NCBI GenBank assembly: GCA_949130485.1
Contig: OX422190.1
Location: 1,053,001-1,117,000, forward strand
Source of the DNA: Agelas oroides
Lineage: Eukaryota; Porifera; Demospongiae; Agelasida; Agelasidae
Length of the DNA: 64,000 nt
Direction of reading: 5' to 3'
A model generated the notes under the pieces. It was not told the origin of the DNA, did no database searches, and saw only the letters and a program-made list of their open reading frames with translations. This document shows, piece after piece, positions 6,755 through 55,817 of the stretch (the stretch's first letter is position 1; the number at the start of each line of letters is the position of its first letter). The position numbers were made by a program, and so were the translations under genes.

Positions 6755-7190
6755 GCTCGCCATTTCGGTGCGTAAATTTGTGTTTTATTAGGCGGCCATG
6801 TGCCGGGGCCGGGGGGGACCGCACCCATGATCGTCATGAGACTTCCCCGTTGGCGCATGCGCACTGACGGGGCACGTTCCTCGAGGAGAAGTGGAGGCAT
6901 CCTAAACGGAGGTAAGTATAGATTGCCTGTTTCACTGTCCGTGTGCTAATAATCTGTACGTGTTTCAAAGAAACCGTAAGACTCTGGTAGCTAGAAGGCG
7001 TGGTGAGAGGCGTGTACTGGGGTGTCCGTGCTTGATACAACCCCTAGCCTTGTAGGATGCAGTACCATATTCTGTGATAGCAGGAGCTTTCACAGTGAAT
7101 GTCGAGTAATCTAAGAAGGAGATGTTCTTGTGAAAATTACCCATCAATACTACCCTCTCTGCCCTTCTCTGCAGGCCGTTACACAGCAAC

Positions 7191-11141
<3,951 letters not shown>

Positions 11142-11235
11142 GGCACTCAGGCAGAAAACACTTTTTTGCCCTCCATGGTCATTTATATTTGGCTGGCAAG
11201 CTCCTAGGGTCTGAATCTGACTGTAACCGTTCTAA

Positions 11236-11241
11236 AATAAA
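11236..11241 (+). promoter_or_regulatory. Polyadenylation signal of EIF5A
   Basis: AATAAA 95 bp after the EIF5A stop codon. Confidence 0.75.
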
Positions 11242-12477
11242 TATCTAATTGTTATTTACTAAACGTGTCACTGTTATCTTCGTATGTTTGTATTCAAATG
11301 GAGATTTCAAAATTTATTTGCTTGTGCATGTGCCCTTTCGTAATCCTGCTTGCAATGTTGGCGGTTAACGAGCCAATGAGGAGTAGGACTGTTGATCGGG
11401 ACTCATGACACCTAGCTAGTTATTAACAGTGCTAGTTATTAACTCATGACACCTAGCTAGTTATTAACAGTGCGAGACAATGTGATGTCATGAGGCGAGA
11501 AAAGACGAAGACAAAAAGTTGGCTAGTAATTTTAGGTGACTAATAGAGAGGTCAACAGGAATCAAACCCAGTCCTTCTGGGTTGAGTTGGCAGTCCTCTA
11601 ATTAGCACTGAGCTGTGCGCGACAACCACCATCCCCCACAGTCTTCATTATATACTCATAATTATGTCAAAATGTCTAGCTGAGATGTTTTAAGCAAATT
11701 GTTTCTGACCCCTGAGGTGAGGAAGTGGTGCACCTTGACAATGAATAACGCTTACTGGACAGCCATCACATCTTGCTAACAAGTGAAACTTCACCTCCTG
11801 AAGGTACAATACACTCACATGCAAGCAGGACATACAAATTATGCGTTGGAGTGATGCACAAGTGTTGAATGGGCTATTCCATTGGATGATGGAACAAACT
11901 ATTTGCTTACCCTGGGACAAAAATTTAGGCCCAACACCCAGATAGTAGTTTACAGAGAATTACGGAAAATTTACAAGAGAATATGGAGAAGTCCTAGTGT
12001 ACCCCTGACACTGAAAAACCATCCATTATTAAATGGAATAGCCCAATTTCTGTGTGAGCAGTAAACCTAGCCTTGTTTGATATCTTATGGGCTGCCATAT
12101 GTCAAAATATTCAATTGGAATACACGGCACCAGAAATTCGGATTAGTTAGCGCACAGGTAGGGTAAGGGTTAGGGTTGGGCAGGTGAACAGGATTTCCGG
12201 TGCCGTATGTTCCAACTGATCCCAAGATACTATTTCATGACATTAATTTTGACTATATATATATTAGTAATAATTATAATAATTATGTTATGTTTACTTG
12301 ATGTTCGCATATAACGTGATATATCTCACTGATTCGATTGGTCAGTGACTTGTAAGTAACAACAATTTGCTGTAAACTATACAGTGTACTGTAAACTTGT
12401 ATACAATAAACTTGCCTACCTCATACATACTCATACTTATTGTAGTGTACTGTTAACTTGGCAAGGTTTATGACAAT
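11242..12477. other. Intergenic stretch with short repeats
   Basis: No gene found. A local duplication (CATGACACCTAGCTAGTTATTAACAGTG) lies at about 11403-11472. A foldback of about 110 bp lies at 12113-12222, with arms around ACGGCACCAGAAAT and its inverse. The centre of that foldback contains GGGTAAGGGTTAGGGTTGGG, which is too short to be telomeric. Confidence 0.6.
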
Positions 12478-12583
12478 AGCATGTTTTCTCATACAGTTTG
12501 GGATTAATAGCACTCGTGAATGGCATAATTGCACTCCACTTCGCCTCGTGCTATTAATCCCAAATTGCACTCGAAACCATGCT
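12478..12583. mobile_element. Small foldback/MITE
   Basis: TTTGGGATTAATAGCAC (12497-12513) pairs exactly with GTGCTATTAATCCCAAA (12548-12564). Outer arms beginning AGCATG and ending CATGCT extend the hairpin to about 106 bp. No coding potential. Sequence from 12584 to 13211 contains no gene that I can support; the stretch at 13020-13205 is a GTGTG/GGAGG-rich imperfect tandem repeat. Confidence 0.75.
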
Positions 12584-13211
12584 ACATATTTGCTCTGAGA
12601 GTTAGGCTTTCCTGTAGACCATCCATTCCCACATACCATGCATACATCACTAGGTGAGACATGGTCACATGGATTGCCATCTGCATGCTGGGGTACTCTA
12701 GACATTCACGGTTATATACAAAGCCGTGATTTTTGAGGCGATAGATGAAGTCAATGATAGTTTGACTGAAGTGGGGTTTTGAGCGTTAAAAGAATCTGGT
12801 TGTAGTCTATGATACACATCAGTCACACAGACTCCGTTTAGCAGTCGGAATTCTCTAGTGTGACGTCATGAAGACTACAAAAAAAAAAAAACATACAAAG
12901 TTGTACAACACACACGTAATGGATTGTGAATAATTTAAATTAATCTGTTTTCTTGTCTGACTGGGGTTGGATAGAACACACGTCACCTTGGCACTCTCTC
13001 GTCTTGGCCTCCTGCGTGGCAGGTGCTTCACTGTGTGTGAGGGAGAGGGTTTGCATGTATGAGGGAGGGGTGTGTATGCATGTGGAAGGGTGTGCATGTG
13101 TGCAGGAGGAAGGAATGTGGAGGAAATGTGTGAGGGGAGGGGGTGTGCATGTGTGCAGGAGGAAGGAATGTGGAGGAAATGTGTGAGGGGAGGGGGTGTG
13201 CATGTGTGCGG

Positions 13212-13277
13212 CAAGAGCACATGATATCATTTTTATTGCGGAGGGAGAAATAAAAATTATGTCATCATATGCTCTTG
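13212..13277. mobile_element. Palindromic MITE (family copy 1)
   Basis: Arms CAAGAGCAC-ATGATATCATT and its near inverse ...TCATCATATGCTCTTG enclose a short loop. Related hairpins occur at 16164-16231 and 44757-44807, so this is a dispersed family. It lies in the putative 3' UTR of the PRXL2B homologue. Confidence 0.7.
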
Positions 13278-13540
13278 GTATGTGGCCATGGGGAGGGTAT
13301 GAATGTGAGGGTGTGGCCATGGGGAGGGTATGAATGTGAGGGTGTGCATAAAGATCAGTTGTACCATGAAAACATTGAGTGTAGTGTTGCCAAAAATCAG
13401 CCAAGAGCATTGTCCTAAAATGGAACATCTTTCTCTCCACTCAACAGGCCACAAAAATTAAAACACGGAGGCATGGAAGGATATCCTCCCATTTCTGGCA
13501 GCTACATCTTGTATTTCTCATGCATGAACAATCAGTACAC

Positions 13541-13662
13541 ACACTCACGTGTACACACACTCACATGCACACACACTCACATGCACACACTCACATGCAC
13601 ACACTCACATGCACACACACTCACATGCACACACTCACATGCACACACACTCACATGTACAC
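13541..13662. repeat. TCACATGCACACAC minisatellite
   Basis: Imperfect tandem copies of a 14-18 bp ACACACTCACATGC unit, immediately after the stop codon of the minus-strand PRXL2B homologue. Confidence 0.9.
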
Positions 13663-13664
13663 AC

Positions 13665-13857
13665 TCACCCTGGCTGGCTGATCCCCAGGGCCTTGAGAAT
13701 GACGTCATTAGCAACATGATCACCAGGGGTCTCCTCACGGTGGTTCAACAGCACCTCTCCCCCTCCCTTGCTCACAACTAACAACCCTCCATTCTGCAGT
13801 CCATCCCCAGACAGGTTGCCTTCAATGTTCTTTGAGCGAGACTGGTGTGTCAGGTGG

Positions 13858-14075: not shown

Positions 14076-15097
14076 CCACCTCACTTATGGCAGCACGTGA
14101 TATCCTGCTCAAAAGGCTTGTCCAGATGTTGAGCCAGTTGAACCGACGATAGCCCAGGTCCGCATAAATCTGTTTCTTCTCATCCACATACACCTCTGTG
14201 GCGTGTGTGTTGAGAGATGGACAGGGGAGGGCCGGAGGGAGTACATTCATAAGTTTGATCATCTCCACCCTCCCACCTTCCATCCCCCTCTCACCTTCCA
14301 AACCCTTTCTCCACCGACTCCTCTGCCCCCCGTTGATCCCAACCCAATGCCACTCCATCTAACTCACCCCATTCTTCCTCCCCCCCACCTTCTCTAACAC
14401 ACCTCCCTCCTCCATTCCCACCTCTCCCCCTCCTCACCCACCTCCTTTAAAGAATTCCCTCTCCACAAACTCCTCTGCCCCCAGTTGCTCAACACCCACT
14501 GCCACCATGTTCACTCCATGTGCATCCAATGTCGGCCGGAGGAGACTAACCTTCACTGCCCCCAGCCGACACAATTGTCATCCAAACCGACGCATGAACA
14601 TGATCACTGCCGGCTTGTCTGACCAGAAGCTCTCCATGGGAACTGACTGTGTATAGACGTGGGTGATGTATTGTGTGTGTGGTGGATGGGTGGATGGGGG
14701 GGGGGAGGGGGAAGAAAACATGCATGCAACACTGCACTTTGGTTAGTCTCGCTCCCATGCCTGCCCAGCTTTCCGTTGCTTGCAGCAATTTTTCGTTCAC
14801 ATGTGGAGAAAGCTCAGTACCATGTGTGCATGTGTGTGTTGAAGAGGGACGCAATAATTATAACAGTTGAGGGTCATTTCCTACCTCTTTCGTGCGCACA
14901 TTCTGCACGAGACGTTTAGCGATCTTTGCAGCCGCCCCACTGTCTGATGATTGGCCGCTGGTAGCCATCCGGACAGGAGCAAACCAACTTTGCGGTAGCA
15001 GTACCCTCACCACTCTGCACAGCATAAAAAGACAAGCAGCTAGGTAGAGAAGTTTGCCTAGCGCGAGAAAGACCCGATTGCAAACTCGACGCAACAT
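13665..15097 (-). CDS. PRXL2B: Peroxiredoxin-like 2B (prostamide/PGF synthase type), predicted selenoprotein U with UxxC site
   Basis: Four minus-strand exons, 14885-15097, 14442-14646, 14080-14195 and 13665-13841, join with perfect phase to 236 aa, or 193 aa from the internal ATG at 14968, which is closer to the family's roughly 198 aa. The thioredoxin-fold signature reads MRRFG-TGA-QLCR: the in-frame TGA (14578-14580) stands exactly where PRXL2 proteins have the first Cys of CxxC. Family-typical blocks follow: LDAHGVNMVAVGVEQLGAEE, EVYVDEKKQIYADLGYRRF and GNLSGDGLQNGGLLVVSKGG. The family reduces prostaglandin H2/prostamide H2 or acts as a redox regulator, and fish SelU homologues carry Sec at this position. 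The long form adds a hydrophobic N-terminal segment. The gene is divergent from LZIC, with 141 bp between ATGs. A SECIS element was not identified; without one, the TGA could be a disabling mutation. Confidence 0.88.
13859..13918. repeat. (TG)n and poly-G tract
   Basis: A GTGTGTG run passes into an interrupted run of more than twenty G within the last intron of the PRXL2B homologue. The G run may form a quadruplex and is a likely assembly weak point. Confidence 0.9.
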
Positions 15098-17336: not shown

Positions 17337-37250
<19,914 letters not shown>

Positions 37251-38368: not shown

Positions 38369-39264
38369 TCACTTCACATAGAGTTCTAAGAGTTGTATTG
38401 GAGAATCTTCACTTCCAACACTATCACAGATCCTGACCTCGATGTCATCAGTTGTGGGGGAGGGTAGTTGCACATTGAACCATGGTGGTGAGTTGAAGGT
38501 GCAACAGGAGCTAGTGGGACCACACCCCTGTCCATCCCACAGGGGGTCACCATCTGGGTGAAAACCACCACCAGTAAACCGAGTTATACCTGACTCACAG
38601 AAGTAGTTCTGGCCCACAAATGAGGGAACTTGATTTCAGTAGTGCTCCCATTGACACAGGGACATGTTGCAGGTGTACCATCACCTGAGAGCCCACCACT
38701 TTCATCAATACCAGTAGCAAAGGTCCAGATGTGTTGGCGAGGAGAGCCACGTGTGACACTGACTCCATCAACATACCAGCTGTCAATTAATGAATTACCA
38801 GTGGAAAAGAAATCTGGTCCTCCAATCTGGTAGCCAATGATCCTCCCACACACCTGATCATACTGCTCACTACCAGTGGAGTATGTGAGCCCTTCACAGC
38901 TACCACCGGTGGATCTTCTCCTGCACACCCTGTATGGGGTGGTGATCTCCCTCCACACAGAGGGACACTGCTGGGAGGGGTCAGACATGTTGAGATAGGC
39001 TACACGTCTCCAGCTAGTTGATCCACATGGTTGCAGGAGGGGTATTACTGACTCTTGGAGCAGACTCAGGGTTGCATTGAGAATTTCATTCCTCACTCTC
39101 TCTTGCTGCTCCTCAGAGGGGCAGGTCTGGCTGCCATCTCCTTGCAAGACTTGTTCAGGGTAGGTGAGAGGGAGGGTAGTGTTGGCTCCCTGGCCAACAG
39201 CTGGCTGAGCTAGGACAGCAAAACTAGCTACAGCTATGCAGATAGGATACACAAAAGTTCCCAT
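38369..39264 (-). pseudogene. Secreted Cys-rich family copy B, frameshifted
   Basis: ATG at 39264 (MGTFVYP..., signal peptide intact). The frame matches copy A block for block, including GWRR-like SWRRVAYLNM, DPSQQCPSVWREITTPYRVC and SRGSPRQHIWTF-type segments, until about 38636. There copy A reads GATTTCCAGTTG and this copy GATTTCAGTAG (plus strand). The single-base loss shifts the frame so that translation ends at 38584, while the FVGQNYFCE...ELYVK remainder continues in another frame to 38369. It also lacks about ten residues before the GxSxWRR block. The break is recent because divergence elsewhere is low; a sequencing or assembly error is the main alternative. Confidence 0.8.
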
Positions 39265-41325
<2,061 letters not shown>

Positions 41326-42888: not shown

Positions 42889-44037
42889 TCATTTCACATA
42901 GAGTTCCATGAGTTGTATTGGAGAATCTTCGTTTCCAATGCCTTGATCACCACAGATCCTGACCTCGATATCATCAGTTGTAGGAGAAGAAAGTTGTGCA
43001 TTGAACCACGGTGGTGAGTTGAAGGTGCAACAGGTGATGCTAGCAGAGCCACACCCCTGTCCATCCCACAAGGGGTCACTGTCTGGCCAGAAAACACCAA
43101 GTCCACCAGTATTATTCCATAGAGTTAGGCCTGTCTCGCAGAAATAATTCTGGCCAACAAATGAAGGAATACTGGATCCATCACTGCTCCCGGTGACACA
43201 GAAGCATGTTGAAGAAGTTCTAATCCCTTCATCAAGACCAGTACTAAATGTCCAGATATGTTGGCGGGGGGAGCCGTGTGTCACACTAACTCCATCAACG
43301 TAGAAGGTGTCTATTGAAAGCATACTACCACTTGAACGATAGAAGGAATCTGGAAGTCCAATCTGGTAGCCAATAATCCTCCCACACACCTGGTTATACT
43401 GTTCATTACCAGTGGAGTAAGTGAGCCCATTACAGCTAGGACCAGTGGAACTTCTCCCACACACCCTGTGTGGGGTAGTGTACTCCCTCCACACAGAAGG
43501 ACACTGCTGGGAGGGGTCAGACATGTTGAGGTAGGCTACACGTCTCCAGCCAGTTGATCCATCACAGGAGTACCCAGTGACTGTTGGAGGCTGAGTAGTA
43601 GGGGGCTGAGTTGATAGCTGAGTTGATAGCTGAGTTGAAAGTTGAGTTGTAGGCTGTGATGGTGGCTGAGTTGAAAGTTGGATTGTAGGCTGTGTTGGTG
43701 GCTGAGTTGAAAGTTGGATTGTAGGCTGTGTTGGTTGCTGAGTTGAAAGTTGAATTGTAGGCTGTGTTGGTTGCTGAGTTGATGGTTCAGTTGGGAGTTG
43801 GGTCTGCAGGAGGGGTACTACTGACTCTTGGAGCAGTCTAAGAGTAGCATTGTCAACTTCATTTCTCACTCTCTCTCGTTGTGCCTCTGAGTGGCAGGTC
43901 TGGCTGCCATCTCCTTGCAAGACTTGGCCAGGGTAGGTGAGAGGAAGAGTGGTGTTGGCTCCCTGGTCAACAGCTGGCTGAGCTAGGACAGCAAAGCTAG
44001 CTACAGCTACACAGATAAGATACACAGGAATCTCCAT
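42889..44037 (-). CDS. Secreted Cys-rich protein with Thr/Gln/Pro linker (family copy C)
   Basis: Intact single-exon frame of 382 aa from ATG at 44037. It has a signal peptide (MEIPVYLICVAVASFAVLAQ) and the same domain blocks as copy A: GWRRVAYLNM, DPSQQCPSVWREYT, QVCGRIIGYQIG, SRQHIW-type segment, FVGQNYFCE, DPLWDGQGC, CCTFNSPPWF, TTDDIEVRIC. It differs by an insertion of about 75 residues made of repeated QPTQPTIQLSTQ units between the N-terminal segment and the domain. This is a low-complexity, probably O-glycosylated stalk that is absent from copies A and B. The insertion is repetitive at DNA level (33 and 12 bp periods), which suggests slippage expansion. It is the only intact copy outside MYBBP1A. 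Confidence 0.85.
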   Translation of the reverse strand: MEIPVYLICVAVASFAVLAQPAVDQGANTTLPLTYPGQVLQGDGSQTCHSEAQRERVRNEVDNATLRLLQESVVPLLQTQLPTEPSTQQPTQPTIQLSTQQPTQPTIQLSTQPPTQPTIQLSTQPPSQPTTQLSTQLSTQLSTQPPTTQPPTVTGYSCDGSTGWRRVAYLNMSDPSQQCPSVWREYTTPHRVCGRSSTGPSCNGLTYSTGNEQYNQVCGRIIGYQIGLPDSFYRSSGSMLSIDTFYVDGVSVTHGSPRQHIWTFSTGLDEGIRTSSTCFCVTGSSDGSSIPSFVGQNYFCETGLTLWNNTGGLGVFWPDSDPLWDGQGCGSASITCCTFNSPPWFNAQLSSPTTDDIEVRICGDQGIGNEDSPIQLMELYVK

Positions 44038-44317
44038 AACATCTGGGTAGATGCAAGTCTAGCACATTTTGAAGCTCAACAGCTACTAGCTAGCTAAGAG
44101 GTATTATTCACAGTCAGGGAGTTGGTACACCAGAATATTAATACAACCTTGAATGTGGGTGAGTCAGCTGATACTCACTCAGAAATGTATAGAATGACTA
44201 TAATGAGTCAGATTGTCATATGATCACATTCACCAACCGTCTCATTGTTATCTCAAGCTCAAATGGTACTATAGCTATATTACAATGTTGAGATGAGTTC
44301 CTGTGGCCTGTCTAGCC

Positions 44318-45226: not shown

Positions 45227-46134
45227 TCACTTTACGTAGAGTTCAACAAGTTGTACTGGAGTATCATCGAATTGAACTTGAACACTCTGTTCCCCACAGA
45301 GCCTGACCTCAATGCCATCGGTTGTGGGGGAGGGTAGCGTTACACTGAACCATGGTGGTGAGTTGAAGGTGCAACAGGAGCTAGTGGGACCACACCCCTG
45401 TCCATCCCACAGGGGATCACCATCTGGATAGAAAGCAATATGTCCAGGATACTGAGTTATGCCTGACTCACAGAAGTAGTTCTGGCCTACAAATGAGGGA
45501 ATGTGGTTCCCATTAGTGCTCCCAGCAACACAGGGGCAAGAAAAAGCTGAGTGCAGTTCATCATAACCACCAGCAAAGGTCCAGATGTGTTGACGGGGGG
45601 AACCATGCGTCACACTGACTCCCACAACATAGACACCATCAATTGATGAATTCCCAGCAAACGGATTGAAAGCATACGGGATGCCAAACTGGTAGCCAAT
45701 GATCCTCCCACACACCTGGTCATACTGCTCACTACCAGTGGAGTAAGTGACCCCATCACAACCGGCTGTGTTTGCATGTTCAGTGGAGATGGATGTTCTC
45801 CTACACGTCCTGTGTGGGGTGGTGATCTCCTGCCACACAGAGGGACACTGCTGGGAGGGGTCAGACATGTTGAGGTAGGCTACACGTCTCTAGCCAGAAG
45901 ACCCACCACAAGAGTACTCAGTTGAGTTGGCTCGAAGGAGGGGTACTACTGACTCTTGGAGCAGTCTTTGTGTACCATTTCTGACCTCATTTCTCACTCT
46001 CTCTCGTTGTTCCTCAGAGGGGCAAGTCTGGCTGCCATCTCCTTGCAAGACTTGACCAGGGTAAGTGAGGGGGAGGGTGGTGTTGACTCCCTGGGCAACA
46101 GCTGGCTATGCAGATAAGATACACAAGAGTTTCC
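45227..46134 (-). pseudogene. Secreted Cys-rich family copy D, nonsense and signal-peptide deletion
   Basis: The C-terminal 213 codons (45227-45868) are open and keep every conserved block (DPSQQCPSVWQEIT, QVCGRIIGYQFG, FVGQNYFCE, DPLWDGQGC, CCTFNSPPWF). Directly upstream the invariant Trp of GWRR is TAG (plus strand TCTCTAGCC where copy A has TCTCCAGCC). The signal-peptide region has lost about 33 bp relative to copy A. Two independent lesions make this a pseudogene, unless an internal ATG at 45868 or a hidden upstream exon is used. Confidence 0.75.
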
Positions 46135-53914: not shown

Positions 53915-54389
53915 GTAAGGTCACCGGATATTCTACTTCCACTAAGGGTATACCCTATTTGAGGAGAATTGTGTCTAGTCCAGCATAGGTCGTGTAGTCG
54001 TTGAGTACATAGTAGATAGTAGAGGTCTACTGTCAAGGCTTATGGAGTCTTGAGGAGCATTTCAATTTATGAGGCTGAGGTGGTCTTTTAATTATGTGCT
54101 ATGAAAGTGTCTCGAGGCTGTAAACCCTTCTCTGAGCATCCAGTTTCCAAGGTATTATGTCATATTGGAACTCAAGTGCTAAGTGTGGAGGCCGGTAAGA
54201 TCTGTTAGTGTGTTGACGTGAATAACACAAGTTGGAGACACTTCCTACTGAACTTCTCATTTATTTTCACATGCTTTCTGTGCTCACACAATGTTTAATA
54301 TAACGTAATGCCATGGAAACCGGGTGCTTAAAGAGGAGTCTATTGGAAAAGTAATTCTCAATAAGGGTATACGTCTATCTCTTTTGCCG

Positions 54390-55817
54390 ATGATTTTTAT
54401 GTATACAGGAGGACTTATGTGGGTATATATTCTCTACACCGACAATCCCTCTTCTGACAGCGCAGTAGACTTAAAAACATATTTTGAGAGACAATGTGAG
54501 TTGAATCCTCGAGTGTGTAAGGAGTTCTACTCGCGGTTAGACCGGTACTGCCATCACACACTTTTGAACACATCTCGTGGAAGTGAAGGCAACTTGCGTT
54601 TTGCAAGTGGAGGCAATGCCTTTGAGCTTGTTCATGTCAACATTCTTGTAAGGCATGGAGATCGTACTCCAGCCTCGACATTCAGAATTGGCTCACCTCG
54701 ATTCTACCAATGTGGACTGGTAGACGGAAACCAAAATTGGAAAGGCCTGAAGGATTTTCCGCAGCTCTCTCCACTCCCTCCCACAGCAAGAATTAAAACT
54801 GCTTACTTAAAGATGTTTCCTGGTACAGACAGCAAGCGTTGTGGGATGGGTTTGCTCACAAACCTAGGATTTCAACAGCTTCATGCACTGGGCACCCTTA
54901 TGAAGCACAAGTATGCCACATTCATTGGAGATTCTTTTGCTAATGCTAAAAGGATATTTGTACACTCGACCGACTATCCAAGAACTATTCACAGTGCAGC
55001 CTCTTTTCTGTTGGGGTTCTTGCCTGACAGTTCACAGATTAGGCAATCCACTGCTATTCATGTATCCCGAGGCTCTGCACTTCAAGCTGCACCCATAGGT
55101 ATCAAATTGGCATATGGCTTTTGTGTTCGTGAAGTTCCATTCCGGATACGTGAAATGAAAACATATTATTCCACTGAGAAGAGAGTCTGGCATCCATTAA
55201 TGGAGCGTCTCTGTGACATGTTCAATCTCCCAAACAGGAATGAGCCAATAATCCAGGATTTGTTTGACCACATTGCAGTGAGGGCCTGCAACACACGTCT
55301 CCTCCCTTGTAACCGTCAAGGAAAATGTGTAGACTACACATTTGCAAAAAAGCTCTTTGACTTCACAGACTGGTCATGGAGTCACAGGTATCCACCTAAC
55401 TCTTCCACCCTAGTTGCAATGACCTTTATAAGACACACACTGCTTGATATGATGGGCAATGCAATCAACCACAGACCCCCAGATATGAAATTTATGCTCT
55501 CTTTCGCCCACGATTCGACTCTTGTGAGAGTTTTAGCTGCTGTAGGTATAGTGCTGGATGAATGGGTGCCATATGCTTCAAGGATTGTGTTTGAACTATG
55601 GAGAAAGAGAGACTCTAAACAGGATTTGTACTATGTGAGGATGCTTTTCAATGGTACCCCCATCACCAATAGAATTCCTATGCTACAACAGTATCAGAGA
55701 ACTCGAGAAGAGACTGGTTTAAATCTTGTGCAGTTTTCTGCGCTGAAGGAATACCTTACAACAGGAAAATACAGAGCTGTAGAATCATGGCTCAGTACCT
55801 GTGGCACTCGGAGATAG
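54390..55817 (+). CDS. PXYLP1: Histidine acid phosphatase family protein, PXYLP1-like
   Basis: A large uninterrupted frame ends at TAG 55815-55817. The first in-frame ATG is at 54390 (475 aa); open sequence extends back to about 54309 with a stop at 54306, so an upstream exon may supply the true start. The N-terminus has one hydrophobic segment (MIFMYTGGLMWVYILYT), consistent with a type II Golgi membrane protein. The catalytic N-motif LVRHGDRTP is at residues 86-94 and the C-terminal catalytic HD is in SFAHDSTLVRVL near residue 374. Both are signatures of branch-2 histidine phosphatases. HSTDYPRTIHSAASFLLGFLP supplies the substrate-side block. PXYLP1 removes the 2-phosphate from xylose in the proteoglycan linker. 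Orthology rests on overall layout and neighbourhood; another lysosomal or acid phosphatase relative is possible. Confidence 0.75.
   Translation: MIFMYTGGLMWVYILYTDNPSSDSAVDLKTYFERQCELNPRVCKEFYSRLDRYCHHTLLNTSRGSEGNLRFASGGNAFELVHVNILVRHGDRTPASTFRIGSPRFYQCGLVDGNQNWKGLKDFPQLSPLPPTARIKTAYLKMFPGTDSKRCGMGLLTNLGFQQLHALGTLMKHKYATFIGDSFANAKRIFVHSTDYPRTIHSAASFLLGFLPDSSQIRQSTAIHVSRGSALQAAPIGIKLAYGFCVREVPFRIREMKTYYSTEKRVWHPLMERLCDMFNLPNRNEPIIQDLFDHIAVRACNTRLLPCNRQGKCVDYTFAKKLFDFTDWSWSHRYPPNSSTLVAMTFIRHTLLDMMGNAINHRPPDMKFMLSFAHDSTLVRVLAAVGIVLDEWVPYASRIVFELWRKRDSKQDLYYVRMLFNGTPITNRIPMLQQYQRTREETGLNLVQFSALKEYLTTGKYRAVESWLSTCGTRR

Follow-up and report, generated by a model that had tools for sequence, protein, structure and literature searches.

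A very probable SelU3 selenoprotein gene in the sponge Agelas oroides, with an in-frame TGA at its redox centre and a SECIS element downstream

A gene on the minus strand of a 64,000-nucleotide stretch of the Agelas oroides genome (contig OX422190.1; this whole stretch is referred to as the window) is very probably an intact SelU3 selenoprotein gene, that is, a member of the prostamide/prostaglandin F synthase (PRXL2B) branch of the peroxiredoxin-like 2 family in which UGA at codon 51 would specify selenocysteine (Sec). The reading frame carries a TGA at the first cysteine position of a CxxC motif, the second cysteine of this motif is kept, and a SECIS element is present 3' of the gene's stop codon. 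TGA51 is almost certainly read as selenocysteine because the gene also carries this element, the RNA hairpin needed for such decoding. By homology and according to established knowledge of the pathway, the hairpin in the 3' untranslated region (UTR) would recruit SBP2, eEFSec and Sec-tRNA during translation, following which the UGA at codon 51 would be decoded as selenocysteine. The gene is predicted to encode an oxidoreductase of thioredoxin fold whose redox centre is U-x-x-C; Sec would attack a peroxide or disulfide substrate and Cys54 would resolve the intermediate.

Gene structure, neighbourhood and family

The gene comprises five exons (minus strand, 14968-12940), which join into a single frame of 222 codons before a TAA stop. 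Its features, together with the downstream element, are as follows.

14885-14968, minus strand: exon 1, from the first ATG as chosen; the start codon is uncertain and the frame is open upstream of this ATG
14442-14646, minus strand: exon 2, which carries the in-frame TGA and reads ...MRRFG-TGA-QLCRLGAV...
14578-14580, minus strand: TGA, codon 51, in a UxxC motif written TGA CAA TTG TGT; in the alignment it stands opposite the first CxxC cysteine of 9us9_A
14569-14571, minus strand: TGT, encoding Cys54 of the UxxC motif, presumably the resolving cysteine, assigned by sequence and alignment
14080-14195, minus strand: exon 3, assigned by splice borders and phase
13669-13841, minus strand: exon 4, assigned by splice borders and phase
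12940-13030, minus strand: exon 5, with a C-terminal CQGDVC motif and the TAA stop (12942-12940); a similar exon is found in the homologues P0037 and P0038
12800-12881, minus strand: SECIS element, 58 nt past the TAA, with helix I, an AUGAC/UGAU core, helix II and an unpaired AA

Exon borders were placed by eye; all introns (238, 246, 238 and 638 nucleotides long) run from gt to ag with compatible phases, and the similarity of P0037 and P0038 to the SelU3 protein begins at the splice site of exon 5, this exon being closely alike in them. The joined frame contains one internal stop, the TGA at codon 51 that gives U-Q-L-C, while the remaining two frames of the same exons contain 8 and 13 stops. 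A first-pass annotation of this DNA had placed exon 2 exactly and had recognized MRRFG, TGA and QLCR in it; the TGA lies at 14580-14578. Its description of phase-matched, otherwise open exons holds for the phases and the frame, with the number of exons being five and not four, and its view that the gene is intact apart from the TGA agrees with the soundness of the splice sites and the rest of the frame. The interval 12853-13664, which it had treated as 3' UTR, turned out to consist mostly of intron 4 and of exon 5, the last one that is coding; the true 3' UTR begins at 12939. Within 11000-12945 a single AATAAA is present, at 11318, and ATTAAA is absent. Searching the window by tblastn for a further SelU copy yielded, beyond the five exons, two matches only (E 3.0 and 9.3).

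With respect to its surroundings, the SelU3 gene lies head to head with an ICAT-domain gene, presumably LZIC-like, which extends from 15239 onwards on the plus strand; the chosen start codons are about 270 bp apart, and a shared promoter is possible. Tail to tail with the SelU3 gene is an eIF5A gene (plus strand; exons 7134-7472 and 10752-11141, spliced by eye). An inverted repeat at 12479-12582 (minus strand, GGGATTAATAGCAC / GTGCTATTAATCCC), located 3' of the SelU3 stop, came to notice as a microRNA match below threshold and possibly represents a small hairpin transposon. Elsewhere in the window, the block 24001-28000 is strongly purine-skewed (GC skew 0.292, AT skew 0.313), and a histidine phosphatase (branch 2), possibly a 2-phosphoxylose phosphatase, is encoded in a single frame at 54309-55814 (plus strand, by Pfam). 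Four tandem paralogues on the minus strand (31622-32566, 38587-39300, 42892-44058 and 45230-45889) encode secreted-looking, cysteine-rich proteins (WRRVAYLNMSDPSQQCPSVW...); the one paralogue scanned against Pfam at E 0.01 gave no match, and 2100 relatives, 120 of them listed, were retrieved from the protein database, so that these proteins belong to a very large uncharacterised family.

The family assignment of the SelU3 protein is given by a match to AhpC-TSA_2 (PF13911; E 1e-24, 87.5 bits versus a cut-off of 27). The only solved relatives at E up to 10 are 9us9_A, a prostamide/prostaglandin F synthase (E 4.9e-45), and 9usa_A. The alignment to 9us9_A runs without a gap over 178 residues (query residues 14-191) and places TGA51 on the first and C54 on the second Cys of CxxC, so the similarity to PRXL2B on either side of the TGA, as noticed in the first-pass annotation, is confirmed. 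Since 9usa_A has Ser at both of these positions, its depositors seem to have replaced the cysteine pair, which would then be the redox pair. The ranking of named matches suggests that the relationship of the protein to PRXL2B is closer than that to PRXL2A or PRXL2C. Among the 120 of 353 relatives listed, which were retrieved with an alignment that included a PRXL2B, the named matches are mostly prostamide/prostaglandin F synthases; other names are uninformative except that of P0163 (Daphnia sinensis), which is of PRXL2A type ('Peroxiredoxin-like 2 activated in M...'), and no vertebrate row named PRXL2A or PRXL2C occurs among the matches listed. The sole NCBIfam match, SelL-related redox protein (NF040769; residues 25-186, E 7.9e-18), was rejected.

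The SECIS element and its occurrence by chance

The position of the SECIS element, 58 nt past the stop codon, would place it in the mature 3' UTR. Its helix I pairs 12880-12872 with 12808-12800 (9 bp), and above this helix an open core is formed in which AUGAC (AUGA from 12869) faces UGAU (12821-12818). Helix II follows, starting with 7 perfect pairs; the AA (12852-12851) is located in an internal loop 12 nt past the quartet, and on top is a short apical stem, which presumably makes the element one of the 'form 2' type. This structure was obtained from a constrained fold, in which the core and the AA were forced to be unpaired; in the free fold helices I and II are unchanged and two core bases become paired. 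An AUGA/GA quartet between two helices and an unpaired AA are in agreement with the features of eukaryotic SECIS elements as described in passages of PMC8704476 and PMC3473315. The first-pass annotation had called for a SECIS element in the 3' UTR, where the present candidate lies, and had seen no convincing one in 12853-13664; this interval does contain only the 5' part of the element, which is nonetheless present at 12881-12800.

When the 64 kb were scanned for the core, the minus strand returned one match, the SECIS element itself, with 7 Watson-Crick pairs and a helix I of 9 bp, and the plus strand two weaker matches, whose Watson-Crick pairs number 4 and 5 and whose helix I has a length of 2 and 3. 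In a first-order random control (30 sequences of 64 kb), a mean of 0.33 loose matches and 0 strict matches were obtained, a strict match being defined as 7 Watson-Crick pairs plus a helix I of 7 or more, while 654.5 Mb of second-order random sequence contained 3918 loose matches, 279 with 7 Watson-Crick pairs and 12 strict ones; these figures are post hoc, as the Python scan was written and its thresholds chosen once the element had been spotted by eye. Two results speak against the element. The fold energy is only moderately low (z -2.29), with 4 of 200 shuffled sequences being equally or more stable, and the SECIS families of Rfam gave no match either in 5.5 kb (E up to 1) or in 161 bases (E up to 10), in searches whose sensitivity on known SECIS elements was uncontrolled.

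Codon 51 in relatives and the competing readings

Homologue searches returned 37 proteins and then 353, the best 120 of which were listed, and all 135 distinct listed proteins were examined at position 51. Cys is present in 87 and Trp in three (P0035, P0180 and P0216), while the remaining 45 do not reach this position. Those Cys rows that bear an organism name are all vertebrate among the matches listed, and several Cys rows are without a name. The named fish rows among these matches likewise have Cys, contrary to the expectation of the first-pass annotation that UxxC would occur in fish; a Sec-containing SelU does exist in fish, but it belongs to SelU1 (PRXL2A) and not to the PRXL2B branch, as set out in PMC3316567.

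As many as 16 of the 45 short homologues start one to two codons past position 51, six of them with MCR and ten with M[FY]CR, the initial Met falling at query position 53 in the former and 52 in the latter when the alignment is extended. Mechanical gene calling yields starts of this kind when codon 51 is a stop. Among the 16 are the NCBI-named Daphnia records P0162 and P0163, which start with MFCRLAAQ one codon past the expected Sec and are probably selenoproteins that have been annotated too short. The other 29 have later starts, which in nine fall on the Met of position 68 and in several lie close to exon borders; P0002, the nearest of the matches listed (86% identical over 56% of the query), is among those that start at position 68, and such starts fit truncation as well as other causes. 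A TGA at codon 51 may thus be conserved in relatives, as 16 of the 45 protein start points would fit. Scans for relatives at the DNA level, in viral contigs (queried once by the protein and once by alignment A1) and in prokaryote contigs (queried by A1), produced 5, 127 and 155 matches, none of which was confirmed as a relative. The prediction of a selenoprotein U in the first-pass annotation is thus supported by the 16 starts just past position 51, by the alignment of the TGA with the first CxxC cysteine and by the SECIS element 3' of the stop.

Three other explanations of the TGA have to be weighed against selenocysteine. A pseudogene or a sequencing error, in which a Cys codon has become TGA in this copy or assembly, would require one base only, as TGA is one base away from both TGC and TGT, and the DNA examined comes from one assembly; this explanation is nevertheless improbable, given that neither the splice sites nor the remainder of the frame show damage, that a SECIS element with every core part lies downstream and that 16 listed homologues start just past the same codon. 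Even less probable is a genuine stop, with a product that terminates at codon 50 or a restart of translation downstream, the SECIS-like hairpin being fortuitous. The lack of an Rfam match for the hairpin would agree with such a stop, as would the database records of relatives that begin past the codon, but similarity to PRXL2B is found on both sides of it and an element of this kind is rare in random sequence.

An altered nuclear code or readthrough, by which UGA would be translated without selenium as another amino acid such as Trp, is just as improbable as a genuine stop. The three homologues with Trp at position 51 speak for it, although these rows may stem from a gene caller that reads TGA as Trp. 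TGA serves as a normal stop codon in this genome, because it closes a COX24_C-domain frame directly past the last profile position and three of three checked tandem paralogues (four exist) at the same conserved C-terminus. A general reassignment of UGA to Trp is ruled out by the stops of these four frames of the window; furthermore, CxxC chemistry would be lost if Trp replaced the nucleophile, and the SECIS element would be left unexplained. Decoding of UGA51 as selenocysteine therefore remains by far the preferred reading.

Significance and relation to known selenoproteins

The Sec form of the SelU3 branch is already known in invertebrates, sponge included, having been published in 2012 (Jiang et al., PMC3473315), and the Agelas oroides gene is a further example of it. 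Since both the family and its invertebrate Sec form are in print, this gene is of value for annotation and for working out when PRXL2B changed from Sec to Cys: it offers a clean Sec-SelU3 example with exon structure and SECIS element, and ordinary gene calling shortens such genes, as in the two named Daphnia records. Passages of Jiang et al. 2012 (PMC3473315) give Cys-SelU3 only in deuterostomes. Mariotti et al. 2012 (PMC3316567) place every vertebrate Sec-SelU in SelU1 and report that evidence for an early Sec-to-Cys change was lacking in SelU2 and SelU3. In flatworms, PMC3828610 describes a Sec-containing SelU from a planarian and homologues from two parasitic species that have Cys. It is reasonably likely that, outside deuterostomes, SelU3 generally has Sec in place of Cys, a state kept all the way from early-branching animals to crustaceans, and that databases hide this state since their records start one to two codons past the UGA. 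If true, this would extend the observations of Jiang et al. 2012 to many more lineages and would conflict with Mariotti et al. 2012 on the early change.

Compared with known systems, the protein has its redox motif at the same place as the CxxC of the PRXL2B 9us9_A, with the codon for the first Cys being TGA in Agelas oroides. The SelL-related redox proteins of NF040769 are matched only weakly (64.7 bits, below the curated cut-off of 120), so that the protein is a non-member by that model. SelU1 (PRXL2A), which contains Sec in fish, birds and platypus, belongs to the same peroxiredoxin-like 2 family, according to PMC3473315 and PMC3316567, but its subfamily differs from SelU3. The Sec-containing SelU3 of the sponge Amphimedon queenslandica, set beside the present gene by its published description, shares both the prostamide/prostaglandin F synthase branch and Sec. 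Four SelU were published for Amphimedon, including Aq.SelU3_b with a SECIS element and Aq.SelU3_c, which is incomplete and without one (in passages of PMC3473315). According to the same passages, 12 of 21 Amphimedon SECIS elements, that of Aq.SelU3_b included, are of the GUGA type, whereas the SECIS element of the Agelas oroides SelU3 gene carries AUGA.
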